Source: Paraurantiacibacter namhicola
GTDB taxonomy: Bacteria > Pseudomonadota > Alphaproteobacteria > Sphingomonadales > Sphingomonadaceae
NCBI RefSeq assembly: GCF_001687545.1
Contig: NZ_CP016545.1
Coordinates: 434,001 to 498,000 of the forward strand
DNA: 64,000 nucleotides
Reading direction: 5' to 3'
The translations under genes were made by a program, and so were the position numbers. The notes under the pieces are model-generated. The model saw only the letters and a program-made list of their open reading frames with translations, was not told the DNA's origin and ran no database searches. Below, in pieces: positions 1 to 10,014 of this stretch. Every line of letters starts with the position of its first letter. Within the stretch, counting starts at the first letter, position 1.

Positions 1-701
1 TCGTCGAAGGTGGAGGAGATTACCTCGCCCTTCACGCTGCGCTGCATGTCGGTGACTTCTTCCGGGCGCTCGTCCACCAGCAGCACCAGCAGGAAGACTT
101 CCGGATGGTTGTCCGTGATGGCCTTGGCGATATTCTGCAGCAGCACGGTCTTACCGGTGCGCGGCGGGGCCACGATCAGGGCGCGCTGCCCTTTGCCCTG
201 CGGGCTGATCAGATCGATCACGCGGGCCGACTTGTCCTGCACCGTGGGGTCGAGCGTATCGAGGTTGAGGCGCTGTTCCGGATAGAGCGGCGTCAGATTG
301 TCGAAATTGGTACGCGTGCGGACCTGGTCGGGATCTTCGTAATTGACGGTCTGCAGCTTGGTCAGCGCAAAATAGCGTTCGCCGTCCTTGGGACCGCGGA
401 TCTCGCCTTCCACCGTGTCACCGGTGCGCAGGCCCCATTTGCGGACCTGGTTGGGCGAAACATAGATGTCGTCCGGCCCGGCAAGGTAATTCGCTTCCGG
501 ACTGCGCAGGAAGCCGAAGCCATCGTTGAGCACTTCGATCGTGCCCATGCCGATGATCTCTTCGCCTTCTTCCGCCACTTCCTTGAGGATGGCGAACATC
601 AGGTCCTGCCGGCGCATGGTGGAGCCGCCTTCGACCCCGTATTCTTCCGACATGCTCACCAGTTCGGCCGGTGTGCGTTCTTTCAGTTCTTTCAGATGCA
701 T
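1..701 (-). CDS. rho: Transcription termination factor Rho, C-terminus outside the window
   Basis: Hexameric RNA-dependent ATPase that ends transcription of untranslated RNA in the cytoplasm. The visible 233 residues begin [17 protein letters not shown], the usual Rho N-terminal helical region. The cold-shock-like RNA-binding domain follows at about residues 50-125 ([22 protein letters not shown]). The Walker A motif [11 protein letters not shown] lies near residue 185 and the Walker B region LLVDERPEE near residue 215. The gene is cut by the window edge just after VISSTFD, so the Q- and R-loops that contact RNA are not seen. Rho proteins are about 420 residues, so roughly 55 percent is here. 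Rho next to hemE is common near alphaproteobacterial origins. Confidence 0.97.
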
Positions 702-881
702 TTGATGTGTTCCGTATGGGAAAATTCGTGTGTTCGGGGCCGGAGAGCGCGGTGACGGGGCCATGGGGCTTGGGGAAAGCGGGCCCGGCTGCGCCACTGG
801 CTACAGCCCAATTCCGTTGCTGCGGCGATACGCCCGCCGCTGCGGCCCGTCAATCGGGCGGATGCGTTCTTTGGCGCGGGC

Positions 882-1325
882 TCAGAAGGGCTTTACGATT
901 GCCAGGATCACGATGATCGCCACGGCAACGCCCGGCACTTCGTTCACCAGCCGCAGCTGCTTGCCGCTCAGGGTGCGTTCGCCGCGCGCCAGCTTTTTCG
1001 CATAAGCGCTCATCCAGCCGTGATAGCCGGACAGCAGGATCACGAAGAGCAGCTTGGCGTGGAACCACCCACTGCTCCAGGCTCCGATCGTGCTGGCGAG
1101 CAGCAGGCCGAGCACCCAAACCACCACGATGGATGGCAGCAGGATGATCTTCAGCAGCTTGCGCTCCCGGTCGACGAATTTTGTCGCCTCTTCGGAACCT
1201 TCGGCCGCTTCCTGGTGATAGACGAACAGGCGCGGCAGCATGAATAGCCCGGCCATCCAGAAAATCACGAAGATGAGGTGTCCCGCCTTCAGCCAGGCAT
1301 AGATCGGGAGGAGCGCTTCCTGCAT
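882..1325 (-). CDS. hemJ: Protoporphyrinogen IX oxidase HemJ
   Basis: Membrane protein of 147 residues of the HemJ (UPF0093) family, which oxidises protoporphyrinogen IX to protoporphyrin IX in heme synthesis. The family hallmark is the first segment, with His16 and the run FWMAGLFMLPRLFVYH. Further hydrophobic helices lie at about residues 58-78, 86-103 and 128-146, fitting the four-helix family fold. The length is typical. It is 9 bases downstream of hemE on the same strand, so two heme-pathway steps are probably co-transcribed. The 180 bases between it and rho show no gene and no clear terminator. Confidence 0.93.
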   Translation of the reverse strand: MQEALLPIYAWLKAGHLIFVIFWMAGLFMLPRLFVYHQEAAEGSEEATKFVDRERKLLKIILLPSIVVVWVLGLLLASTIGAWSSGWFHAKLLFVILLSGYHGWMSAYAKKLARGERTLSGKQLRLVNEVPGVAVAIIVILAIVKPF

Positions 1326-1334
1326 ATCCGCCAG

Positions 1335-2378
1335 TTAGGAGCCCGCGCCGCCGCGCACAACCGCCAGCAGCCGCTCCACATTGGCAATCGGCGTTTCCTT
1401 GTCGATCCCGTGACCCAGGTTGAAGACATGCGGGCGGTCCGCAAAGGCGCGTAATATGCCCCTTGCCGCGCCCTCGAGTTCTTCCGAGCCCGACAACAGC
1501 AGGACCGGATCGAAATTGCCTTGCACCGGCATGCCGGCGGGCAGCTCGCGGTGCGCCCATTCCGGCTCCACCGTCTCGTCCAGCCCCACAGCGTCCACGC
1601 CCGTTTCGCGGGCATAAGCGGGAAGCTTCGTGCCGGCGCCCTTCGGGAACCCGATGACGGGGACCGCTGGATGCCGCTGCTTCACCGCAGAGGCGATGCG
1701 CGCATTGGGTGCGATGACCCAGCGCTCGAACTGCGCCGGGCTCAGCGATCCGGCCCAGCTATCGAACAATTGCACCGCTTCCGCCCCCGCCTCAATCTGG
1801 CCGGAGAGGTATTCCACCGTGTCGGAGACGATCGCATCGATGATTGCGTCGAAGGCCGCGGGGTCGCGGTAAGCCAGGCTGCGTGCGGCCTGCTGGTCCT
1901 TACTGCCCTGCCCTGCCACCATGTAAGTCGCCACGGTCCAGGGAGAACCGGCAAAGCCCAGCAGCGTGGTCTCATCCCCCAGGCCGGCACGCACCTGGCG
2001 CACCGTCTCGTAAATCGCGTCGTACCGGCTGGCATCGGGCTCCAGCGCGGCGAAGGGCGTATCTGCCAGCACCGGCGAAAGCTTGGGGCCCTCGCCTGCC
2101 AGGAATTCCAGCGTCTGCCCCAGCGCATAGGGGACGATCAGGATATCCGAGAACAGGATCGCCCCGTCGAACCCGAACCGCCGGATCGGTTGCAGCGTGA
2201 CCTCTGCCGCGGCCTCGCTGTCATACACCAGCTCCAGGAAACCGCCCTTATCCGCCCGCAAGGCGCGGTATTCCGGCAGGTAACGTCCGGCCTGCCGCAT
2301 CAGCCATACGGGTGCCCGCTCACCCTTGTTACCGTTCAACGTTTCTAGGAGAAGTCCGGGCATTGCGGAATGGTCCAA
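1335..2378 (-). CDS. hemE: Uroporphyrinogen decarboxylase
   Basis: Cytoplasmic enzyme that removes four carboxyl groups from uroporphyrinogen III to give coproporphyrinogen III in heme synthesis. The protein has 347 residues, the normal length. It shows the signature PVWLMRQAGRYLPEYR near the N-terminus and FSDILIVPYALGQ after it; the Arg of the first motif and the Asp of the second are the conserved substrate-contacting residues. Translation may begin at the ATG written here or five codons later (MPGLLLETLNG), which matches most homologues better. It heads a minus-strand hemE-hemJ pair, and its promoter must lie in the divergent gap that I interpret as the replication origin. Confidence 0.97.
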   Translation of the reverse strand: MDHSAMPGLLLETLNGNKGERAPVWLMRQAGRYLPEYRALRADKGGFLELVYDSEAAAEVTLQPIRRFGFDGAILFSDILIVPYALGQTLEFLAGEGPKLSPVLADTPFAALEPDASRYDAIYETVRQVRAGLGDETTLLGFAGSPWTVATYMVAGQGSKDQQAARSLAYRDPAAFDAIIDAIVSDTVEYLSGQIEAGAEAVQLFDSWAGSLSPAQFERWVIAPNARIASAVKQRHPAVPVIGFPKGAGTKLPAYARETGVDAVGLDETVEPEWAHRELPAGMPVQGNFDPVLLLSGSEELEGAARGILRAFADRPHVFNLGHGIDKETPIANVERLLAVVRGGAGS

Positions 2379-2668
2379 TCAAAAAACAATATATTTATAT
2401 ATAGGATTCTGGAGTCTGTTGGCCCTGTGGAAACCGGGGACGAAACGCGCCCTGCCAGACTTTTCCCCGGCTGCAAACCGCAGAACGGTCTTGCGACTCC
2501 GCACCGCACGTGAGTCAAGCGAGAGCTGTCCACGGCCAGAGAATGCTGTGCAAACACCAGGGCTTCCCACGGATAAGCCGCTGCAGGAATCACCCGTTAG
2601 CGGGGACGGATTTCTATCCCGATCTTGTCCGCAGCCATGTCCCGTGGTTTATGCCCCCACTTGTCCAC
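2379..2668. other. oriC: Putative chromosomal replication origin (oriC) between hemE and ppsR
   Basis: This divergent gap has an AT-rich run at about 2376-2410 (AATATATTTATATATAGG core), a plausible unwinding element in otherwise G+C-rich DNA. DnaA-box-like 9-mers are TTGTCCACA at 2661-2669 (one mismatch to TTATCCACA), TGTGGAAAC at 2426-2434 and TGTGCAAAC at 2547-2555 (each one mismatch to the reverse of TTWTNCACA), and weaker TTGTCCGCA at 2625-2633 and CTGTCCACG at 2526-2534. Three GANTC sites, the target of CcrM-type methylases, lie at 2412, 2495 and 2512. No TTAA occurs, so there is no CtrA-type half-site. The Caulobacter origin lies between hemE and the same neighbour (RP001/DUF299). The assignment is inference from synteny plus motifs. 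Confidence 0.68.
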
Positions 2669-3532
2669 ATGGCGAAAATGACCAGACTGCACCTCCACCT
2701 CCTGTCCGATTCCACCGGCGAAACGCTGGAGATGATCGCCAAGGCCGCCCTCGCCCAGTTCGAGGATGCCGGCGTGCAGCGCCATTTCTGGCCGATGGTG
2801 CGCAGCCAGCAGCACCTCGACCGTATCATGGGCGAGCTGAAGGACAATCCGGGGCTGGTGCTTTATACCCTCGTGAACGAGCAGACGCGCGAGAGGCTGG
2901 AAGAACGCTGCCGCGCCATGGGCCTGCCGCATGTCGATGCGCTGGACGCCGTGACCGAGGCGCTGGAGGCGCAGCTGGGGCAGGAAGCGCATGGCCGCCC
3001 GGGCCGCCAGCACAAGATGGACGATGCCTATTTCGCGCGGGTCGATGCCATCCAGTTCACCATCGCGCATGATGACGGCTTGCTTTACGACGAGTGGGAG
3101 GAGGCCGACATCGTGCTGGCGGGCGTGTCGCGCAGCTCCAAGACGCCGACCAGCATCTATCTTGCCAATCGCGGCTACAAGGTCGCCAATATCCCGCTGG
3201 TGGTGGAAAGCCCGCCCCCGCAGAAGCTGTTCCAGCTGAAGAAGCCCATGGTGGTCGGCCTGACCACGGCGACGCGCCGCCTGCTGGAAATCCGGCGCAA
3301 TAGGCTGCTGTCGCTGAACGAGGAAAAGACCACCTCCTATATCGACCAGGATGCGGTGGAAGCGGAGAACAAGTTCGCCCGCCGCATGTTTGCCGACAAT
3401 GGCTGGCCCGTGATCGACGTGACGCGCCGCTCTATCGAGGAGACGGCCGCTGCCGTGATCCGCCTCTACAACCAGCGCGAGACGATGCTGGAAGAAGGCG
3501 GGGAGGCGCAGGAAGGCTTAAAGCCCATATGA
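2669..3532 (+). CDS. ppsR: Pyruvate phosphate dikinase / PEP synthase regulatory protein (DUF299)
   Basis: Bifunctional ADP-dependent kinase and Pi-dependent phosphorylase that switches PEP synthase or pyruvate phosphate dikinase off and on. The N-terminus TRLHLHLLSDSTGETLEM is the family signature, and the nucleotide-binding loop is GVSRSSKTPTSIYLANRG. The start chosen gives 287 residues; ATG at 2678 (MTRLHLH) is equally possible. The frame is open further upstream but that stretch has no family resemblance and would run through the putative origin. The A of the start codon is the last base of the DnaA-like box TTGTCCACA. It leads the ppsR-maf-aroE-coaE-dnaQ run, with a 4-base overlap into maf. 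Confidence 0.93.
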   Translation: MAKMTRLHLHLLSDSTGETLEMIAKAALAQFEDAGVQRHFWPMVRSQQHLDRIMGELKDNPGLVLYTLVNEQTRERLEERCRAMGLPHVDALDAVTEALEAQLGQEAHGRPGRQHKMDDAYFARVDAIQFTIAHDDGLLYDEWEEADIVLAGVSRSSKTPTSIYLANRGYKVANIPLVVESPPPQKLFQLKKPMVVGLTTATRRLLEIRRNRLLSLNEEKTTSYIDQDAVEAENKFARRMFADNGWPVIDVTRRSIEETAAAVIRLYNQRETMLEEGGEAQEGLKPI

Positions 3533-4134
3533 CCCGGCCGGGCAGCTCGGCGCGGGCGCTGGTGCTCGCCTCCAAGTCCGCCTCGAGGCAGGACATGCTG
3601 CGCAGTGCCGGCGTACCATTCGAAGCGCGCCCTGCCGATGTGGACGAGCGCGCCGTGGAAGCGGGGCTGGGCGGTGCGCGGCCGGACCAGGTGGCACTTG
3701 CGCTGGCGGAGGCAAAGGCACTGGCCGTGGAGGCTGGCGATGCCGCCGTGCTGGGCAGCGATTCCCTCGTCGTGCTGGGGAACGAACGCTTCGACAAACC
3801 CGCCTCGCGAGAGGACGCCGCGCGCCATTTGCGGGCGTTCTCCGGCCGCGTGATGCAGCTGCATGCGGCGGCGGCCATAGCCATCTCAGGCGATATCGTG
3901 TGGCGCCATTCCGGCGTGGCGTCACTGCAAGTGCGTGAATTGTCGGACGAATTCATCGAGGCCTACCTACAGACCGAGTGGCCCGAGGTATCCTATTGCG
4001 TCGGCGTGTTCCGGATGGAGGCGCTGGGCGTGCAGATCTTCGAGCGGATCGAGGGCGACTATTTCACCATCCTCGGCATGCCATTGGTGCCCGTCCTCGG
4101 CGCCTTGCGCGAAATCGGCGTGCTGCAATCGTGA
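3529..4134 (+). CDS. maf: Maf family nucleoside triphosphate pyrophosphatase
   Basis: Maf/YhdE-type house-cleaning enzyme that hydrolyses non-canonical or surplus nucleoside triphosphates to monophosphates; Maf is also tied to septum inhibition in Bacillus. It has 201 residues, a typical length. The Maf signature is LVLASKSASRQDMLRSAG near the N-terminus, followed by the DSLVVL and YCVGVFRMEALG regions and the acidic GDYFTILGMPL near the C-terminus. Its ATG overlaps the ppsR stop by 4 bases and its own stop overlaps the GTG of aroE, so translation is probably coupled. maf beside ppsR and aroE is the standard alphaproteobacterial origin-side arrangement. Confidence 0.95.
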   Translation: MTRPGSSARALVLASKSASRQDMLRSAGVPFEARPADVDERAVEAGLGGARPDQVALALAEAKALAVEAGDAAVLGSDSLVVLGNERFDKPASREDAARHLRAFSGRVMQLHAAAAIAISGDIVWRHSGVASLQVRELSDEFIEAYLQTEWPEVSYCVGVFRMEALGVQIFERIEGDYFTILGMPLVPVLGALREIGVLQS

Positions 4135-4997
4135 CGCAGGCCGCCCTGCCCTATGCGGAGGTGATCGGCGATCCCATCGCGCAGTCGAAATCGCCGCTGA
4201 TCCATGGTCACTGGCTGGCAGAGCTGGGCCTTGAAGCCGAATACCGCGCGCACCGGGTCGAGGCTGGCGGCGTGCCCGCCTATCTGGATGCGCGGCGGCA
4301 GGACCCGGACTGGCGCGGTTGCAATATCACCATGCCGCACAAGCAGACCGCGCTGGAACTGGTCGACCGGCTGGATCCGCTCGCCCGGCGCATTGGCGCG
4401 ATCAACACGATCGTGCGCGAGGGCGAGGCGCTGGTCGGCTGCAACACCGATGCGCCCGGTTTCCTGGAGCCGCTGAAGGACCGGCTGGGCCAGCAGCACC
4501 TCTTCCGCATGGCCCGCGTGCTGGGCACTGGCGGCGCGGCGCGGGCGATTGTTGCTGCACTTGCGGCGGAGGGCTTTGTCATCGTCCTGGCGGGCCGCAA
4601 TCTGGACAAGGCGCGCGCCTTGCTGGACGAGCTGGATCCTGGCGGGGAGCATCATGTGGCCCCGCTCGAGCATTTTGCCGCGCCAACCGACTTCGCCTTC
4701 GACGACCGGGAAGGTTGCTGCGACCTGGTGGTCAATGCCAGCCCGCTGGGCATGCGCGGGCAGTCACCGCTTTCCTTCGACTGGAGCCATGCCCCGCCCC
4801 GCTCATTGGCCTACGACATCGTCACCGATCCGCTGGACACACCCTTCCTTGCCGGAGCCCGCGCCGCCGGGCTGGAGACGGTCGATGGCCTCTCCATGCT
4901 GATCGGCCAGGCTGCCATCGCCTTCGAGAAGTTCTTTGGCGCCCCGCCCCCACGCGCAGACCGCGATGCGGCGCTGCGTCAGGCCTTGGCGCAATGA
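4131..4997 (+). CDS. aroE: Shikimate dehydrogenase (NADP+)
   Basis: Reduces 3-dehydroshikimate to shikimate with NADPH in the chorismate pathway. The GTG at 4131 overlaps the maf stop (GTGA) and starts the protein as VTQAALPYAEVIGDPIAQSKS, whose SKSP substrate-binding segment is the normal AroE N-terminus; the same frame is open upstream but without homology. Catalytic Lys sits in NITMPHKQ, substrate-binding Asp in NTDAPGF, and the NADP Rossmann loop is GTGGAARAI. The length of 288 residues is normal. The C-terminal MLIGQAAIAFEKFFG motif is also present. The ATGA overlap with coaE continues the operon. Confidence 0.96.
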   Translation: MTQAALPYAEVIGDPIAQSKSPLIHGHWLAELGLEAEYRAHRVEAGGVPAYLDARRQDPDWRGCNITMPHKQTALELVDRLDPLARRIGAINTIVREGEALVGCNTDAPGFLEPLKDRLGQQHLFRMARVLGTGGAARAIVAALAAEGFVIVLAGRNLDKARALLDELDPGGEHHVAPLEHFAAPTDFAFDDREGCCDLVVNASPLGMRGQSPLSFDWSHAPPRSLAYDIVTDPLDTPFLAGARAAGLETVDGLSMLIGQAAIAFEKFFGAPPPRADRDAALRQALAQ

Positions 4998-5599
4998 GTC
5001 GCCCGCTCGTTATCGGCCTGACCGGCTCCATCGGCATGGGCAAGAGCACGGTTGCTGCCATGTTTGCCGAGCGTGGCGTGCCGGTTTTCGATGCCGACGC
5101 CGCCGTGCGCAAATTGCAGGGCCCGGCCGGCGCGCTCCTGGAACCGATCGAGGCGGCATTTCCGGGCACGACCGGGCCGGACGGGCTGGACCGCGCGGCC
5201 ATGGGTGCGCTCGTATTCGACGATCCCGAAGCGCTCGCAAGGCTTGAATCCATTGTGCACCCTGCGGTTGCGGAGCGCCGCGCGGCCTTCCTGCTGGAGC
5301 ATGGCTCTGCGCCGATGGTGCTGTTCGATATCCCGCTGCTGTTCGAGAAGGGCGGCGCGGACGTGGTGGACGTCATTGTGGTGGTCTCCGCCCCCGCCGC
5401 CATCCAGCGCGCCCGCGTCCTGGCCCGCCCCGGCATGACGCCCGAGCGGTTTGCCGAGATCCTCGAGCTGCAGCTGCCCGATGTGGAGAAGCGCCTGCGG
5501 GCGGACCACGTCATCGACACGGGCATGACGCTGGAGCAGACCCGGGCTGCCGTCGCGGATCTGGTGAAGAAACTTGGCAGCGAGGCCGCGAAGGCTTGA
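4994..5599 (+). CDS. coaE: Dephospho-CoA kinase
   Basis: Last enzyme of coenzyme A synthesis: phosphorylates the 3'-hydroxyl of dephospho-CoA with ATP. The 201-residue protein begins MSRPLVIGLTGSIGMGKSTV, which contains the P-loop G-x-x-G-x-G-K-S. The following FDADAAVRKLQG and the DIPLLFEKGG segments are conserved CoaE features, and the lid arginines lie in QRARVLARPGMT. The start is fixed by the 4-base ATGA overlap with aroE. A longer open frame upstream only shadows aroE. Confidence 0.96.
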   Translation: MSRPLVIGLTGSIGMGKSTVAAMFAERGVPVFDADAAVRKLQGPAGALLEPIEAAFPGTTGPDGLDRAAMGALVFDDPEALARLESIVHPAVAERRAAFLLEHGSAPMVLFDIPLLFEKGGADVVDVIVVVSAPAAIQRARVLARPGMTPERFAEILELQLPDVEKRLRADHVIDTGMTLEQTRAAVADLVKKLGSEAAKA

Positions 5600-5631
5600 A
5601 TGCCAGCCACGCAGGTGCGATTCCATCGCTC

Positions 5632-6327
5632 ATGCGCGAGATCATATTCGACACCGAAACCACCGGCCTGGACCCCAGGAAAGGCGACCGGATGGTGGAG
5701 ATCGGCTGCATTGAAATGGTCAACCGCGTGGCCACGGGCCAGACCTATCACGCCTATTACAACCCCGGCATGCCGATGCCGGCCGAGGCCGAGAAGATTC
5801 ATGGCATTTCCGACAGCTTCCTGGCGGACAAGCCGCCTTTCGCGGAAATGGCGCGCGAATTGCTTGAGTTTCTCGGCGATGCACCGCTGGTGGCGAACAA
5901 TGCGCAGTTCGACTTCAACTTCCTGAATTTCGAGCTTGAGAATTGCGGGTTCGAGGCGATCTCGCTGGACCGGATGATCGATACGCTGGTCCTTGCGCGC
6001 AAGCGGCACCCCGGCGCCAAGCATTCGCTCGATGCGCTTTGCACGCGTTACGGCGTCGATCGCAGCCACCGCACGCTGCACGGCGCCCTGCTCGATTCCG
6101 AACTGCTGGCGCAGGTCTATGTCGAACTGACCGGCGGCCGGCAGATCGGCCTGGGCCTGGCGGACGATGGCAGCGACGGCGGCGATGAGGGGGAGGCCGT
6201 GACGGCGCGCTTCGTCCCGCGCACGGGGCAATTCCGCCCGCCCCGCCCGCACGCCGCATCGCCGGAAGAGCTGGCCCGGCATAAGGCCTTTCTCGAATCA
6301 TTGGATTCCCCGCTCTGGACAGCCTAG
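5632..6327 (+). CDS. dnaQ: DNA polymerase III epsilon subunit (3'-5' proofreading exonuclease)
   Basis: Proofreading subunit of the replicative polymerase. All three DEDDh exonuclease motifs are visible: Exo I FDTETTGLD, Exo II NNAQFDFNFL and Exo III HRTLHGALLDSELLAQVY. The C-terminal tail is long and charged, ending in RPHAASPEELARHKAFLESLD, the region used in this family to contact the alpha subunit. I chose ATG 5632 (MREIIFDTETTG), the usual DnaQ start, giving 231 residues. A TTG at 5596 overlaps the coaE stop and would add 12 residues without family support. Position next to the origin and after coaE is conserved in alphaproteobacteria. Confidence 0.95.
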   Translation: MREIIFDTETTGLDPRKGDRMVEIGCIEMVNRVATGQTYHAYYNPGMPMPAEAEKIHGISDSFLADKPPFAEMARELLEFLGDAPLVANNAQFDFNFLNFELENCGFEAISLDRMIDTLVLARKRHPGAKHSLDALCTRYGVDRSHRTLHGALLDSELLAQVYVELTGGRQIGLGLADDGSDGGDEGEAVTARFVPRTGQFRPPRPHAASPEELARHKAFLESLDSPLWTA

Positions 6328-6376
6328 GCTGCCGGTCAGGGATCGCGGACGGCAACAGATGGAGTAGCACCAGCTT

Positions 6377-6949
6377 ATGGACATTCGTGTATCCGGCCAC
6401 CAGGTCGACACCGGAACCGCGCTGCAGGAGCATGCGCAGGATCGTTTGGGCACAATCGTCGATAAGCATTTCAGTCGGGCCATCTCCTCCCACGTCACTT
6501 TCGGGAAAGCTCCCGCCAACGCCTTCACCGCCGATATCGTCATGCATGTCAGCCACGGACTCGTGCTGAAATCGCGCGGCGATGCGCATGATGCGCACAA
6601 GGCGTTCGACGATGCGGCGGAAAAGATCGAGAAGCAGCTGCGCCGCTACAAGCGCCGGCTGAAAGATCGCCACGAACAGGCCGCCCACGCCGCGCGTGAG
6701 GAGGATGCAGCCTATGTCGTGTTCGCCAATACGGCCGATATCGACAGCGAAGAGGAAGTGGCCGAAGACGCGCCCCCGATCATTGCCGAAACCCGCGTCG
6801 ACATCCCGGAGGCCAGCGTTTCTGACGCGGTGATGATGCTCGATTTGCGCAACACCACTGCGCTGTTTTTCAAAAATGCTGGAACCGGGCGGCATAATAT
6901 GGTCTATCGCCGCCCTGACGGGTCGATCGGCTGGGTGGAACCGGCCTGA
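6377..6949 (+). CDS. hpf: Ribosome hibernation promoting factor, long form
   Basis: Stationary-phase factor that binds the 30S decoding region and, in its long form, brings 70S ribosomes together as 100S dimers. The N-terminal S30AE domain spans about residues 1-100 (MDIRVSGHQVDTGTALQEH start). A short linker rich in Glu and Asp follows, then the C-terminal dimerisation domain from about residue 135, with LDLRNTTALFFKNAGTG and the end YRRPDGSIGWVEP. The length of 190 residues marks the long form. It precedes ptsN, the classic order, but rpoN, often found upstream, is not here. Confidence 0.95.
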   Translation: MDIRVSGHQVDTGTALQEHAQDRLGTIVDKHFSRAISSHVTFGKAPANAFTADIVMHVSHGLVLKSRGDAHDAHKAFDDAAEKIEKQLRRYKRRLKDRHEQAAHAAREEDAAYVVFANTADIDSEEEVAEDAPPIIAETRVDIPEASVSDAVMMLDLRNTTALFFKNAGTGRHNMVYRRPDGSIGWVEPA

Positions 6950-7044
6950 TCTCTGGCGGGTCCGCAGCCCGCCATCAAATCACAACCTGAGGGTTTCAGG
7001 TGGCTTTCGCCGCATGGCGGGCCAATGTTTGAACGAGTGAAGCA

Positions 7045-7506
7045 ATGAACGTGCACTTCCTGATCACGGCGGACGCCGTCGCATTGAGCAATGCGGGCAG
7101 CAAGGACGAGATCCTTGAGCTGCTGGCTGCCCGATTCGCGACCGCATACGAACTTGATTTGCAGGACGTGCTCGACCACCTGCGCGAACGCGAGGCCCTG
7201 GGCAGCACCGGTTTTGGCCGTGGCGTTGCCATCCCGCATGCGCGCATCGGCGGGCTGCAGCGCCCGGTCGGCGTGCTGCTGAAGCTGGACAGCCCGGTGG
7301 ATTTCGCGGCGGCCGACGGCATGCCGGTGGACCTCGTCTTCGGGCTGGTCTCCCCGGAAAATGCCGGGGCAACGCATCTGCATGCCCTTGCCGCCATTTC
7401 GCGCCTGACGCGCGACGATGCCATGCGCGATGCCCTGACAGCGGCGGATACGCCGGAAGTGCTGTATGGTCTCATTACCAATGCCGGGGACCGCGACGCT
7501 GCCTGA
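7045..7506 (+). CDS. ptsN: PTS IIA-like nitrogen-regulatory protein PtsN (EIIANtr)
   Basis: Phosphoryl acceptor of the nitrogen phosphotransferase system, which controls potassium transport, sensor kinases and other targets rather than sugar uptake. The phosphorylated His is His65 in GRGVAIPHARIGG. The 153-residue length and the PTS EIIA type 2 fold pattern (LREREALGSTGFG, then MPVDLVFGLVSPENAGATHL) are typical. It follows hpf after 95 bases; that gap contains a stem ACCTGA-loop-TCAGGT at 6985-7001, without a T run, upstream of the gene. The 3' end overlaps the thioesterase gene. Confidence 0.95.
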   Translation: MNVHFLITADAVALSNAGSKDEILELLAARFATAYELDLQDVLDHLREREALGSTGFGRGVAIPHARIGGLQRPVGVLLKLDSPVDFAAADGMPVDLVFGLVSPENAGATHLHALAAISRLTRDDAMRDALTAADTPEVLYGLITNAGDRDAA

Positions 7507-7960
7507 GAACGCCGGAGATATCGGCCAGTCAGGCCATTTCCGCGCGCTCGAATCGCTCTATGCCTCCGCGCCCGTCAACGCGCTGTTCCGCTCGCGCCTC
7601 GAAGTGCCGGGTCCGGGGGAGGCGCGAATCAGCTTCGAAGTCGGTGAGGAGCACCACCATGCCGCGGGCGCAGCGCATGGGACGCTCTATTTCAAGATGC
7701 TGGACGATGCGGCCTTCTATGCCGCCAATTCGCTCGTCACGGACCGTTTCCTGCTGACCACCGGTTTCAACCTGTTCTTCACCAAGCCGGTGCGCGAAGG
7801 GCCGGTCGTGGCCGAGGGCAAGTGGATCAGCGGCAAGCGGCGAGTCTATGTGGCCGAAGCCCGGCTGGTCGATGCCGAGGGCGAGGAAATCGGGCGCGGT
7901 ACGGGCACCTTCATGCGCAGCAACATCCCGCTGGGCGGCCTGCCCGGCTACCGGACCTGA
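7466..7960 (+). CDS. PaaI family hotdog thioesterase
   Basis: Probable acyl-CoA thioesterase with a single hotdog fold. The conserved core is HHAAGAAHGTLYFKMLDDAAF followed by TTGFNLFFTKPVREG, where His-Gly and the Asp of the LDD turn belong to the hotdog active-site helix. The protein ends RGTGTFMRSNIPL, a common thioesterase C-terminus. Two ATGs are possible, 7466 and 7481, both inside the 3' end of ptsN in another frame, and neither has a clear ribosome-binding site. The substrate is unknown. It sits between ptsN and a DUF1491 gene, probably in one transcript. Confidence 0.82.
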   Translation: MVSLPMPGTATLPENAGDIGQSGHFRALESLYASAPVNALFRSRLEVPGPGEARISFEVGEEHHHAAGAAHGTLYFKMLDDAAFYAANSLVTDRFLLTTGFNLFFTKPVREGPVVAEGKWISGKRRVYVAEARLVDAEGEEIGRGTGTFMRSNIPLGGLPGYRT

Positions 7961-7968
7961 CGGCGCCC

Positions 7969-8313
7969 TTGCCCGACCAGAGGCTCCCCACACATATCGA
8001 GGTTTCCGGCCTGATCCGCGCCGTGCAGGCCGCAGGCGGCTTTGCGACGGTCCTTTCCAAGGGTGAGCGCGATGCCGGGACAATCATGGTAATTTGTTGC
8101 GAAAATGGCACAAATGCCAGCGCCTGGGAGCGGATGCCGCAGCGCGACGGGACCCGTGCATTCGAATGCGCCCGCACGGAAGACCCTGAAAACAAAGCGG
8201 ACTTCTTCGATTTCTGGCGTCGCAGGGCGCAGCAGGACCCCGATTTGTGGGTCGTGGAGCTGGACGTCGAAAATGCAACACGGTTCGTCGCGGGAGACGG
8301 AACCGTTAGTTGA
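7969..8313 (+). CDS. DUF1491 family protein
   Basis: Small alphaproteobacterial protein of unknown function. The family signature is the N-terminal RLPTHIEVSGLIRAVQAAGGF, followed by a beta-rich segment with ERDAGTIMVICC and a C-terminal FWRRRAQQDPDLWVVELDV. No ATG is available in a sensible place; a TTG at 7969 gives MPDQRLPTH as the N-terminus and 114 residues, close to family length. It begins 8 bases after the thioesterase stop, so the two are probably co-transcribed. No catalytic motif is recognisable. Confidence 0.8.
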   Translation: MPDQRLPTHIEVSGLIRAVQAAGGFATVLSKGERDAGTIMVICCENGTNASAWERMPQRDGTRAFECARTEDPENKADFFDFWRRRAQQDPDLWVVELDVENATRFVAGDGTVS

Positions 8314-8338
8314 CAGTTAGTCCTAGCCTACTATTTGG
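8310..8338 (+). promoter_or_regulatory. Possible promoter for the cell-wall hydrolase gene
   Basis: A perfect TTGACA occurs at 8310-8315, overlapping the stop codon of the DUF1491 gene. TATTTG or ATTTGG lies 16-17 bases on, a weak -10. The following 170 bases up to the hydrolase start hold no gene and no other motif that I can support. Confidence 0.28.
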
Positions 8339-8511
8339 GCGGCAACTTCCAACAACGCGGACGATTTTGAAACGCACGGCATGCTGCCGTTGCGGGTCGC
8401 TGCGTAGACGGGGAGTGGCCGGCAGGTCATGCCGATCCACCAAGCGGGCTCTGGACAGCCCCGGATCGCCATCCTGCGACAGTGCGCTCACCGCCTAGAG
8501 TTTAGGGATCG

Positions 8512-9183
8512 ATGAAAGTTTCGAAACTTCGGACCGCGGCGCTCGCCGTGGCCCTTCTTGGCACGGGATGGTACGCGATGGCGCAGGGCGATGGCGCCTT
8601 CGCCCAGGATACCGCCGAACCGGCAGTGATTGCCGGATCCCAGATCCAGGACCCGGTCGAGCCGGCTGCAGAGCCCGCTCCCGAAGTCCGCTTCGTGGCA
8701 GAGCCGGTGGTGCAGGAAATCCCTGCCGAAACCGAGCAGCCCGCCGAGCCGGAAGCCCCGGTCGCCGGCAACTCGCTTAACGAGGTCATGGCAAATGTCC
8801 CGCATGATGGCGACATGAGCGCCGACATGCAGTGCCTCGCCAAGGCCGTCTATTTCGAATCCCGCGGTGAACCCGTTGCCGGCCAGCTGGCTGTTGCCAC
8901 GGTCATCATCAATCGCGCGGACAGCAGCCGTTTCCCCGACACCTATTGCAGTGTCGTGAAGCAGCGTTCGCAGTTCTCCTTCGTGAAGGGTGGTCGCATT
9001 CCCGAGCCCCGCAGCGGTGCTGCATGGAACCGCGCCCGCAAGGTCGCCCGCATCGCGCACCGCGGCCTGTGGGAAAGCGAAGTGGGCGATGCGCTCTACT
9101 TCCACGCCACTTACGTGAAGCCGCGCTGGGCGAGCCGGATGACCCGGCGCGCCAAAATCAGCACGCACGTTTTCTATCGCTGA
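8512..9183 (+). CDS. Exported cell wall hydrolase, SleB domain
   Basis: Putative peptidoglycan hydrolase (Hydrolase_2/SleB family, lytic-transglycosylase-like). An N-terminal signal sequence (LRTAALAVALLGTGWYAMAQG) is followed by a Pro/Glu-rich linker at about residues 30-85. The SleB catalytic domain starts near residue 100 with LAKAVYFESRGEPVAGQLAV, whose Glu is the expected catalytic acid, then VIINRADSSRFPDTYCSVV and SQFSFV. The length is 223 residues. It is followed by a strong terminator and faces xth convergently. Confidence 0.9.
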   Translation: MKVSKLRTAALAVALLGTGWYAMAQGDGAFAQDTAEPAVIAGSQIQDPVEPAAEPAPEVRFVAEPVVQEIPAETEQPAEPEAPVAGNSLNEVMANVPHDGDMSADMQCLAKAVYFESRGEPVAGQLAVATVIINRADSSRFPDTYCSVVKQRSQFSFVKGGRIPEPRSGAAWNRARKVARIAHRGLWESEVGDALYFHATYVKPRWASRMTRRAKISTHVFYR

Positions 9184-9210
9184 TAGCTGACAGGCAATCG
9201 AAACAAGGAA

Positions 9211-9237
9211 GGGCGGCCCCGCGGGGTCGCCCTTTTT
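9211..9237 (+). terminator. Rho-independent terminator after the cell wall hydrolase gene
   Basis: Stem GGGCG-G-CCCC, two-base loop, GGGG-T-CGCCC with one G:U pair, followed by TTTTT at 9233-9237. It lies 28 bases after the stop and directly before the convergent xth stop, so it separates the two transcripts. Confidence 0.9.
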
Positions 9238-9240
9238 GAT

Positions 9241-10014
9241 TCAGTCGGCGAGTTCCACCCAGACGGGGGCGTGGTCGCTGGCCTTTTCCCGCCCGCGATA
9301 TTCCTTGTCCACGCCCGCGGCGCGCAAGCGGTCGGCCGCTTCGGGTGACAGCAGGAGGTGGTCGATGCGGAAGCCATGGTCGCGCGGCCAGGCACCGGCC
9401 TGGTAGTCCCAGAACGTCCATACACCGCCGCGCGGGTTCAGCGTTTCGATCGCATCGGTCCAGCCATCGCCCAGCAGGCGGAAATAGGCATCGCGCGATT
9501 CCGGCTGCATCAGGGCGTCCTCCGCCATGGCGCGCACGGCCCACACGTCGCGGTCATGCGGGATGACGTTGAAGTCGCCCAGCACCACGGTCGGCAGCTC
9601 GCGCGCGGCGAGCTCTGCCATGCGGGCACGCAGGCGCTTCATCCACGCCAGCTTGTAATCAAATTTCGGGCCGGGCTGCGGGTTGCCATTGGGCAGGTAG
9701 AGATTGGCCACACGCACGCCGCCTACATCGGCTTCCAGATAACGGGCCTGCTCGTCCTCATCATCGCCCGGCAGGCCGCGCTGGATTTCCACGGGCTCCT
9801 CGCCATCGGCCAGGATGGCAACGCCGTTGAAGCTTTTCTGCCCGTGCCAGATGGCGTGATAGCCGATCTTCTCGAATTCCTCGCCCGGAAAGCCTTCGTC
9901 CTGGCTCTTGATCTCCTGCAGGCAGGCGACCTTCGGGCGGGTTTCCTCCAGCCATTCCAGCAGGCGGGGCAGGCGCGCTTTCACGCCATTGATGTTGAAG
10001 GTGGCAATCCGCAT
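9241..10014 (-). CDS. xth: Exodeoxyribonuclease III
   Basis: AP endonuclease and 3'-5' exonuclease of base excision repair. The start MRIATFNINGVKARLPRLL and the metal-binding Glu in CLQEIKSQD are standard. The motif GDFNVIPHDRDVW and the terminal ASDHAPVWVEL (catalytic Asp-His) complete the exonuclease-endonuclease-phosphatase fold. It has 257 residues, the normal length. It is 10 bases downstream of erpA, so the two are likely in the same transcript with the CBS gene. Confidence 0.96.
   Translation of the reverse strand: MRIATFNINGVKARLPRLLEWLEETRPKVACLQEIKSQDEGFPGEEFEKIGYHAIWHGQKSFNGVAILADGEEPVEIQRGLPGDDEDEQARYLEADVGGVRVANLYLPNGNPQPGPKFDYKLAWMKRLRARMAELAARELPTVVLGDFNVIPHDRDVWAVRAMAEDALMQPESRDAYFRLLGDGWTDAIETLNPRGGVWTFWDYQAGAWPRDHGFRIDHLLLSPEAADRLRAAGVDKEYRGREKASDHAPVWVELAD

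Follow-up and report, generated by a model that had tools for sequence, protein, structure and literature searches.

Caulobacter has been shown to have its chromosomal origin beside hemE, and the same has been predicted of Rickettsia (PMC1914354); in the Sphingomonadaceae an oriC next to the same gene has been reported from Ori-Finder predictions (PMC4741004; PMC4059872). The origin of Caulobacter crescentus, Cori, is marked by a hemE/COG1806 gene pair and an AT-rich run, and it carries DnaA boxes of modest affinity and several GANTC sites (PMC1914354, PMC4468827, PMC3973325), with parS lying within 8 kb of it (PMC4468827). The predicted oriC of Sphingopyxis and other Sphingomonadaceae is likewise linked to hemE and has a predicted DNA-unwinding element (DUE) and DnaA boxes; the passages devoted to these Ori-Finder/DoriC predictions mention a GC-skew ring and contain no parS or GANTC analysis (PMC4741004; PMC4059872). 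Plots at 1% resolution show GANTC becoming denser toward ori in four orders, among them the Sphingomonadales (PMC9836097); several GANTC sites have been noted in Caulobacter origins (PMC3973325), and GANTC-rich repABC origins have also been described (PMC6090056). Clustered methylation sites are also the mark of the Dam/SeqA system of E. coli, where oriC holds eleven GATC (PMC10073500).

Here, a stretch of 64,000 nucleotides, called the window below, was analyzed in Paraurantiacibacter namhicola, whose chromosome is a single contig (C1) of 2,591,679 bases (2.59 Mb); the window covers C1:434,001-498,000. The gap between hemE and ppsR at window positions 2364-2668 is very probably (probability about 0.93) the chromosomal oriC of this alphaproteobacterium of Sphingomonadaceae/Erythrobacteraceae type. 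The origin was placed in or beside the gap because a polarity switch, parS sites and synteny agreed, and the likely origin proposed there in the initial annotation was supported by the same three lines, the polarity being that of an octamer. The gap resembled Cori in its hemE/COG1806 pair, its AT-rich run, its candidate DnaA boxes and its several GANTC sites, and the predicted oriC of the Sphingomonadaceae in its link to hemE and its candidate DUE and DnaA boxes. It is very probably a hemE-type alphaproteobacterial origin, expected and ordinary in kind.

The gene order was conserved well beyond P. namhicola, whose nearest named relatives, as judged by ppsR, were Croceibacterium, Novosphingobium, Aurantiacibacter and similar genera. 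A search of 149 family genomes detected ppsR in 141, and its surroundings were examined in 44 of these, six short loci duplicating 20-kb regions having been dropped beforehand. Divergent hemE and ppsR were present in 44/44 (P. namhicola included), with a gap of 268-359 nt. Among the named loci, which come partly from the same genomes as the 44, a divergent hemE was detected in 79 of 80, and the lone locus lacking it had just 214 bases of contig before ppsR. For the other families of the class, one genome per family was picked for contig room from 184 ppsR-positive genomes among 289 searched; 38 of these 40 showed the divergent pair and the other two lacked hemE in the roughly 4 kb around ppsR. 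Eight of the 149 family genomes gave no ppsR match (G007, G024, G025, G077, G082, G108, G142 and G144), six of them at least 90% complete; ppsR, and perhaps the origin context too, may have been lost in these eight genomes.

The features of the gap and of its two flanking genes are given below in window coordinates; same-column counts refer to the 44 family gaps.
1335-2363, minus strand: hemE (uroporphyrinogen decarboxylase); TIGR01464 (NCBIfam) gave 388 bits for 1335-2378
2369-2408, unstranded: AT-rich stretch, candidate DUE, 32/40 A/T
2405-2409, unstranded: GANTC site GATTC on the border of the AT-rich run; same column in 8/44 (a count of 37/44 close by includes the adjacent site and was set aside)
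2412-2416, unstranded: GANTC site GAGTC between the AT-rich run and box 1; same column in 32/44
2426-2434, minus strand: DnaA box 1, DUE-proximal, candidate, GTTTCCACA; 2 mismatches to TTATCCACA
2452-2468, unstranded: conserved block, family form cTGCCCGATTTcTCCCg / GCCCGATTTnTCCCG
2495-2499, unstranded: invariant GANTC site GACTC; GA-N-TC in 100/100 aligned non-redundant origins
2512-2516, unstranded: GANTC site GAGTC in conserved GAGTCAA; GANTC in 26/44
2526-2534, plus strand: weak DnaA-box-like site CTGTCCACG, 3 mismatches; consensus nnTTnTCCcCgcTnTCCcCAGc
2587-2591, unstranded: GANTC site GAATC, loosely placed; same column in 10/44, within 8 columns in 29/44
2625-2633, plus strand: candidate DnaA box TTGTCCGCA, 2 mismatches; consensus aaCTTGTCcnC
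2640-2655, plus strand: conserved block TCCCGTGGTTTATGCC; exact GTGGTTTA in 83/92 origins
2661-2669, plus strand: candidate DnaA box TTGTCCACA, 1 mismatch, overlapping the ppsR ATG
2669-3532, plus strand: ppsR (DUF299/COG1806 kinase-phosphorylase); NF003742, 331.6 bits against a cut-off of 225

The initial annotation had recognized the gap, the edge of which at 2379 was moved to 2364; ppsR starts at 2669. The start of hemE was better set at the CAT of 2361-2363 (MPGLLLE), the likely start codon, the C, A and T of which were kept in 43, 41 and 40 of the 44 genomes. With this conserved start the gap corresponds to C1:436,364-436,668, in place of C1:436,379-436,668 as first delimited. rho, hemJ and hemE on the minus strand are followed by ppsR, maf, aroE, coaE and dnaQ on the plus strand, and the names given to these neighbors were all confirmed. 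hemE, ppsR/DUF299, hemJ, coaE, dnaQ and rho, the last severed by the window edge and thus incomplete, each passed at least one curated NCBIfam cut-off; maf matched the right families below their cut-offs (101.8 vs 117.15 and 198.9 vs 269), as did aroE its own (196.6 vs 200.2). Neither window 1-10,000 nor C1:428,000-434,000 contained an RNA family at Rfam gathering scores.

The AT-rich run described beforehand was borne out, since 32 A/T in the best 40 bp was reached by none of 84,240 windows taken in 10-nt steps over 844 kb of the genome, and an AT-rich run was seen at the same place when the gaps of relatives were inspected by eye. The five DnaA-box-like 9-mers fared less evenly: the single-mismatch box at 2661 held, and only three of the five were within two mismatches of TTATCCACA, the rest having three. 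The 9-mer TTGTCCACA occurs in five copies in the genome, one of them C1:436,661. When the P. namhicola gap was taken alone, one box within one mismatch was matched by 113/2000 dinucleotide shuffles and three boxes within two mismatches by 74/2000, so that the organism's own boxes, few and weak, appear suggestive of an origin and not decisive. Across the relatives the argument looks strong, with 76 boxes within one mismatch in the 44 family gaps vs 1.9 in shuffles, and 197 within two mismatches vs 31.9.

Box 1 lies inverted in CCTGTGGA, with the family form CCTGTGGAta on the plus strand, and the G, T, G, G and A at 2427-2431 were each conserved in at least 97% of 100 origins. Relatives often carried tandem direct boxes (consensus TTnTCCcC..TnTCCcCA), the strict pair pattern occurring in 39/100 origins; in P. 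namhicola this pair is half degenerate (window 2524-2545), the second box being the degenerate one. The arrangement of a DnaA box beside an AT-rich run is also that of the DnaA-trio/BUS system, from which the gap differs in lacking the trio pattern itself. The published rule, a DnaA box, a spacer of at most 16 and at least three NAN trios (PMC8287927), was applied with its second-box and scoring steps left out, and a DnaA-trio reading of the P. namhicola gap was rejected. The trio pattern was observed in 19/44 family gaps vs a mean of 4.1 in shuffles, and the unwinding sequence may differ between clades of Sphingomonadaceae.

The comparison with Caulobacter made in the initial annotation stood for the gene neighbors and the origin class, but not for control by CtrA. 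The CtrA site pattern TTAA-N6/7-TTAA was found in 0/100 origins, P. namhicola included, and in 5/38 gaps of other families. The absence is in keeping with the statement in PMC4468827 that most other origins show no CtrA sites; the Sphingomonadales nevertheless retain the CckA-ChpT-CtrA relay (PMC2877005). The IHF site pattern WATCAANNNNTTR (exact match) was found in 0/100 origins. Judged by these patterns, the P. namhicola gap, carrying neither, does not appear to be a Cori in the strict sense. A further difference from Cori was a GANTC at a fixed place across the Sphingomonadaceae origins.

GANTC was by far in excess in the gap, with five sites vs 0.27 expected from the genome, and nowhere else in the 844 kb sampled did 305 bp contain five GANTC. 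Dinucleotide shuffles of the gap itself, which is richer in A/T, gave 1.25 sites on average, and five were reached in 17/2000. The 44 family gaps together held 236 GANTC vs 67.6 in dinucleotide shuffles (at most 90), a density of 15.7/kb; the 20-kb regions around 20 of these gaps had 2.44/kb. The seven isomeric palindromes reached 0.7-3.0/kb, except AGNCT (6.9/kb), a word that shares bases with the conserved GAGTCT. A further 56 non-redundant origins, obtained from the 79 named hemE loci by removing 23 with shared 60-mers, had GANTC at 14.9 vs 2.8/kb. For the other families, the two loci without hemE were dropped from the 40, and the remaining 38 gaps, three of them above 1 kb, contained GANTC at 6.3 vs 2.2/kb, with at least one site in 36/38; the 145 sites compared with 32.7 expected from the flanks and 82.2 from the gaps' own base composition, and the excess outside the Sphingomonadaceae would therefore be modest. 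The counts of GANTC and of origins are not independent events, since the genomes are related.

The enzyme expected to act on these sites is also present. P. namhicola encodes a CcrM homologue with methylase and RAMA domains, very close to the solved CcrM (phmmer to structure 6pbd, E 4.8e-152), so that an origin cluster of candidate CcrM substrates occurs together with a CcrM homologue, as is characteristic of sequestration-type systems. The gap is thus like E. coli oriC in outline, with GANTC/CcrM in place of GATC/Dam.

One of the sites was fixed in position. The GANTC at 2495 kept each of its four defined bases in 100/100 origins, the middle base being C in 72, A in 27 and T in 1, and its neighbors were variable except for a C at -1 in 92; in the smaller alignment GANTC stood in this column in 40/44. 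No other 5-mer of the gap combined at least 95% at its four outer positions with at most 80% at the middle one; at looser limits (90%, 85%) four other 5-mers fitted as well. When alignment was dispensed with, a GANTC was found 45-130 nt beyond box 1 in 92/92 origins and at 67-69 nt in 82/92. That the origins of this family are packed with GANTC and hold one at a nearly fixed place is apparently new, as far as our searches show; the open-licence literature, outside which most subscription papers fall, gave no report of a position-fixed GANTC in these origins.

We tentatively propose a position-fixed CcrM switch, a reading that is possible but doubtful, in which the GANTC that stands 67-69 nt away from the DUE-proximal box would be read during assembly of the orisome. 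The packed GANTC sites would be the expected substrates of the CcrM homologue and would turn hemimethylated once the fork has left. On the simplest reading, the mark would be the invariant site, which lies between box 1 and the boxes farther out; DnaA, GcrA or another protein would sense its methylation state there, so that an origin that has fired could be told from one that has not. In its detailed form, in which methylated, hemimethylated and unmethylated states would be distinguished with the help of the sites at the DUE edge, this would be an alphaproteobacterial counterpart of Dam/SeqA, and we hold it with the same reserve.

The published experiments point both ways. Caulobacter without CcrM has a DNA-content profile like that of the wild type (PMC3973325), and in Agrobacterium the DnaA-dependent ori1 showed no significant change on CcrM depletion or excess (PMC11514494); by analogy, both results count against a Dam-like role, and the probability given to the methylation switch was lowered because of the ori1 result. 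Over-expression of CcrM in Caulobacter is reported to lead to extra chromosome copies, as cited in PMC3973325, and the RepC origin of Agrobacterium, ori2, over-initiates under CcrM excess (PMC11514494), which would count, again by analogy, for some role of CcrM. Methylation-sensitive initiation seems plausible for the origins analyzed here.

The same conservation would be expected if the gap is the origin and the invariant GANTC is kept for a sequence-specific protein that does not read methylation, its match to the CcrM site being incidental. Other short blocks of the gap were conserved without any GANTC, the G-T-C-A-A portion at 2512 was kept more widely than GANTC itself, and methylation of the gap sites by CcrM is a prediction from sequence. 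Against this explanation, just the four bases recognized by CcrM were fixed at 2495 while the unread middle varied, no other 5-mer of the gap had that pattern at 95%/80%, four more doing so at the looser limits, and the word GANTC was also in excess at several other points of the gap. On balance we regard it as unlikely.

Fixed spacing was not confined to the GANTC site. Toward ppsR, the weak box at 2526 is followed by CTTGTCCGC, TCCCGTGGTTTATGCC and, at the ppsR start, TTGTCCACA. After removal of 8/100 origins without the TGTGG anchor, the distance from box 1 to the invariant GANTC had an interquartile range of 67-68 (n=92); after removal of nine more without exact GTGGTTTA, the distances to GTGGTTTA were 147-148 from the invariant GANTC and 214-216 from box 1 (n=83 for both). 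This phasing, kept over some 20 helical turns, suggested one assembly and not unrelated promoter parts, and the conserved spacing would accordingly reflect a single nucleoprotein assembly.

Ordinary promoters of hemE and of the ppsR operon, with GANTC serving GcrA-CcrM transcription control and the origin elsewhere nearby, would be the competing account of these elements. The hemE promoter would lie in the AT-rich run, and that of ppsR would consist of TTGTCC, 17 nt and TTTATG preceded by TG. Just before ppsR there is indeed a -35/-10-like pair, its halves 17 nt apart and its core conserved: TTGTCC in the 2625 box is a possible -35, and TCCCGTGGTTTATGCC, 17 nt from 2630, a possible extended -10. 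But unrelated promoters need not hold their spacing across about 216 bp, and GANTC is about 6-fold above the surroundings; in 17/20 relatives the part of the 20-kb region richest in GANTC overlaps the gap. By a single blastn measure the origin part, C1:436,370-436,596, was matched in 12/20 relatives, and the other true non-coding gaps of 26 kb in 0, 1, 1, 3 and 7 of 20; one more gap, matched in 19/20 relatives, is a small gene and not non-coding. Polarity and parS still indicated the gap. As a replacement for the origin, the promoter account is very improbable, and promoters may well coexist with the origin in the gap. C1:429,890-430,240, considered as a second conserved intergenic stretch, was rejected, since it holds a small conserved protein gene on the minus strand (MKMHIEIDCTPEEARQFMG...), situated between parS and the origin.

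With two mismatches allowed, the only parS sites of the whole genome were those at C1:426,098, 426,460 and 428,587, on the hemE side at 7.8-10.3 kb from the gap, close to the distance of within 8 kb given for Caulobacter (PMC4468827). Among 25 single-contig relatives, parS was found at up to one mismatch in 19 and was absent at this limit from six; in 18 of the 19, all 32 sites lay 5.8-12.4 kb from ppsR. The nineteenth, G139, had 14 parS-like sites, seven of them clustered 23-28 kb from ppsR and the rest scattered over the chromosome.

The strand-polarized octamer GGGCAGGG has 161 and 192 sites in its two orientations in the whole genome, and its listed places are complete for C1:1-1,296,083, where the change-point test was run. 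The best single change point fell at 438,144-447,608, with 17:39 forward:reverse sites before it and 83:23 after it, and 0/2000 label permutations were as good. The 2-log-unit support range was 435,906-471,125, and the interval containing the gap (435,906-438,144) was 1.1 log units under the best, which places the gap at the low edge of the support. Polarity therefore names the neighborhood and not the gap, because the support spans 35 kb and the best interval begins 1.5 kb past the gap. As the octamer had been chosen on stretches partly inside the tested region, a control omitted the 31 sites there; the 131 remaining left best interval and support range unchanged, with 13/34 before the gap and 63/21 after. 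GGGCAGGG behaves like an FtsK-orienting (KOPS-like) motif, switching near C1:438-448 kb and at 1.65-1.69 Mb.

The terminus was taken from polarity, GGGNAGGG flipping from 6:0 to 0:7 between the stretches at 1.650 and 1.680 Mb; a dif-like pattern gave no match at up to three mismatches. With the origin at the gap, the arms are about 1.24-1.25 and 1.34-1.35 Mb long (ratio 0.92-0.93). GC skew, sampled in 39 stretches of 20 kb plus the window, was positive in 10/10 stretches from 0.705 to 1.67 Mb, negative in 14 of the 15 that lead from 1.68 Mb past the contig ends to 175 kb (the one at 2,525,001 differed), and weak with mixed sign at 185-655 kb. The sampled skew agrees with an origin within 0.18-0.7 Mb and is not sharp.

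A skew minimum elsewhere, for example next to dnaA, had been named in advance as the outcome that would speak against the gap; the support range of the octamer switch included the gap, and no switch occurred at dnaA. The contig does start 538 bp before the DnaA match (539-1900), and C1:1-538, part of which may be dnaA coding sequence, has five GANTC sites in its 538 bp. Rotation of a contig to dnaA is probably a database habit. An origin at dnaA or next to it, the arrangement of many bacteria, is highly improbable here, given that dnaA lies 435 kb from the gap inside one polarity arm without a switch at 0 kb, that the 17 forward and 38 reverse GGGCAGGG sites of C1:0-436.5 kb have the sense of a left arm, that GC skew is negative in all but one of the stretches from 1.68 Mb through dnaA to 175 kb, that the dnaA region has no parS and one DnaA box within two mismatches, and that the arms would be uneven, with a ratio of 0.54-0.55.

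With the origin in or beside the hemE-ppsR gap, initiation might proceed as follows. DnaA would load on the inverted box beside the AT-rich run and on the direct-orientation boxes toward ppsR, and the boxes and conserved elements would probably act as a single nucleoprotein assembly, since their spacing is conserved almost to the base. The assembly would open the AT-rich run beside hemE and load the helicase both ways, and parS, 8-10 kb off on the hemE side, would let ParAB separate the new origins.

The placement of the origin is mainly useful as the zero point of the P. namhicola chromosome and of the chromosomes of its relatives. What lifts this origin above routine is the fixed GANTC, whose conservation was observed and whose role is proposed. 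A phased, invariant GANTC would give a single small target for asking whether DNA methylation times replication in alphaproteobacteria whose origins carry no CtrA sites.
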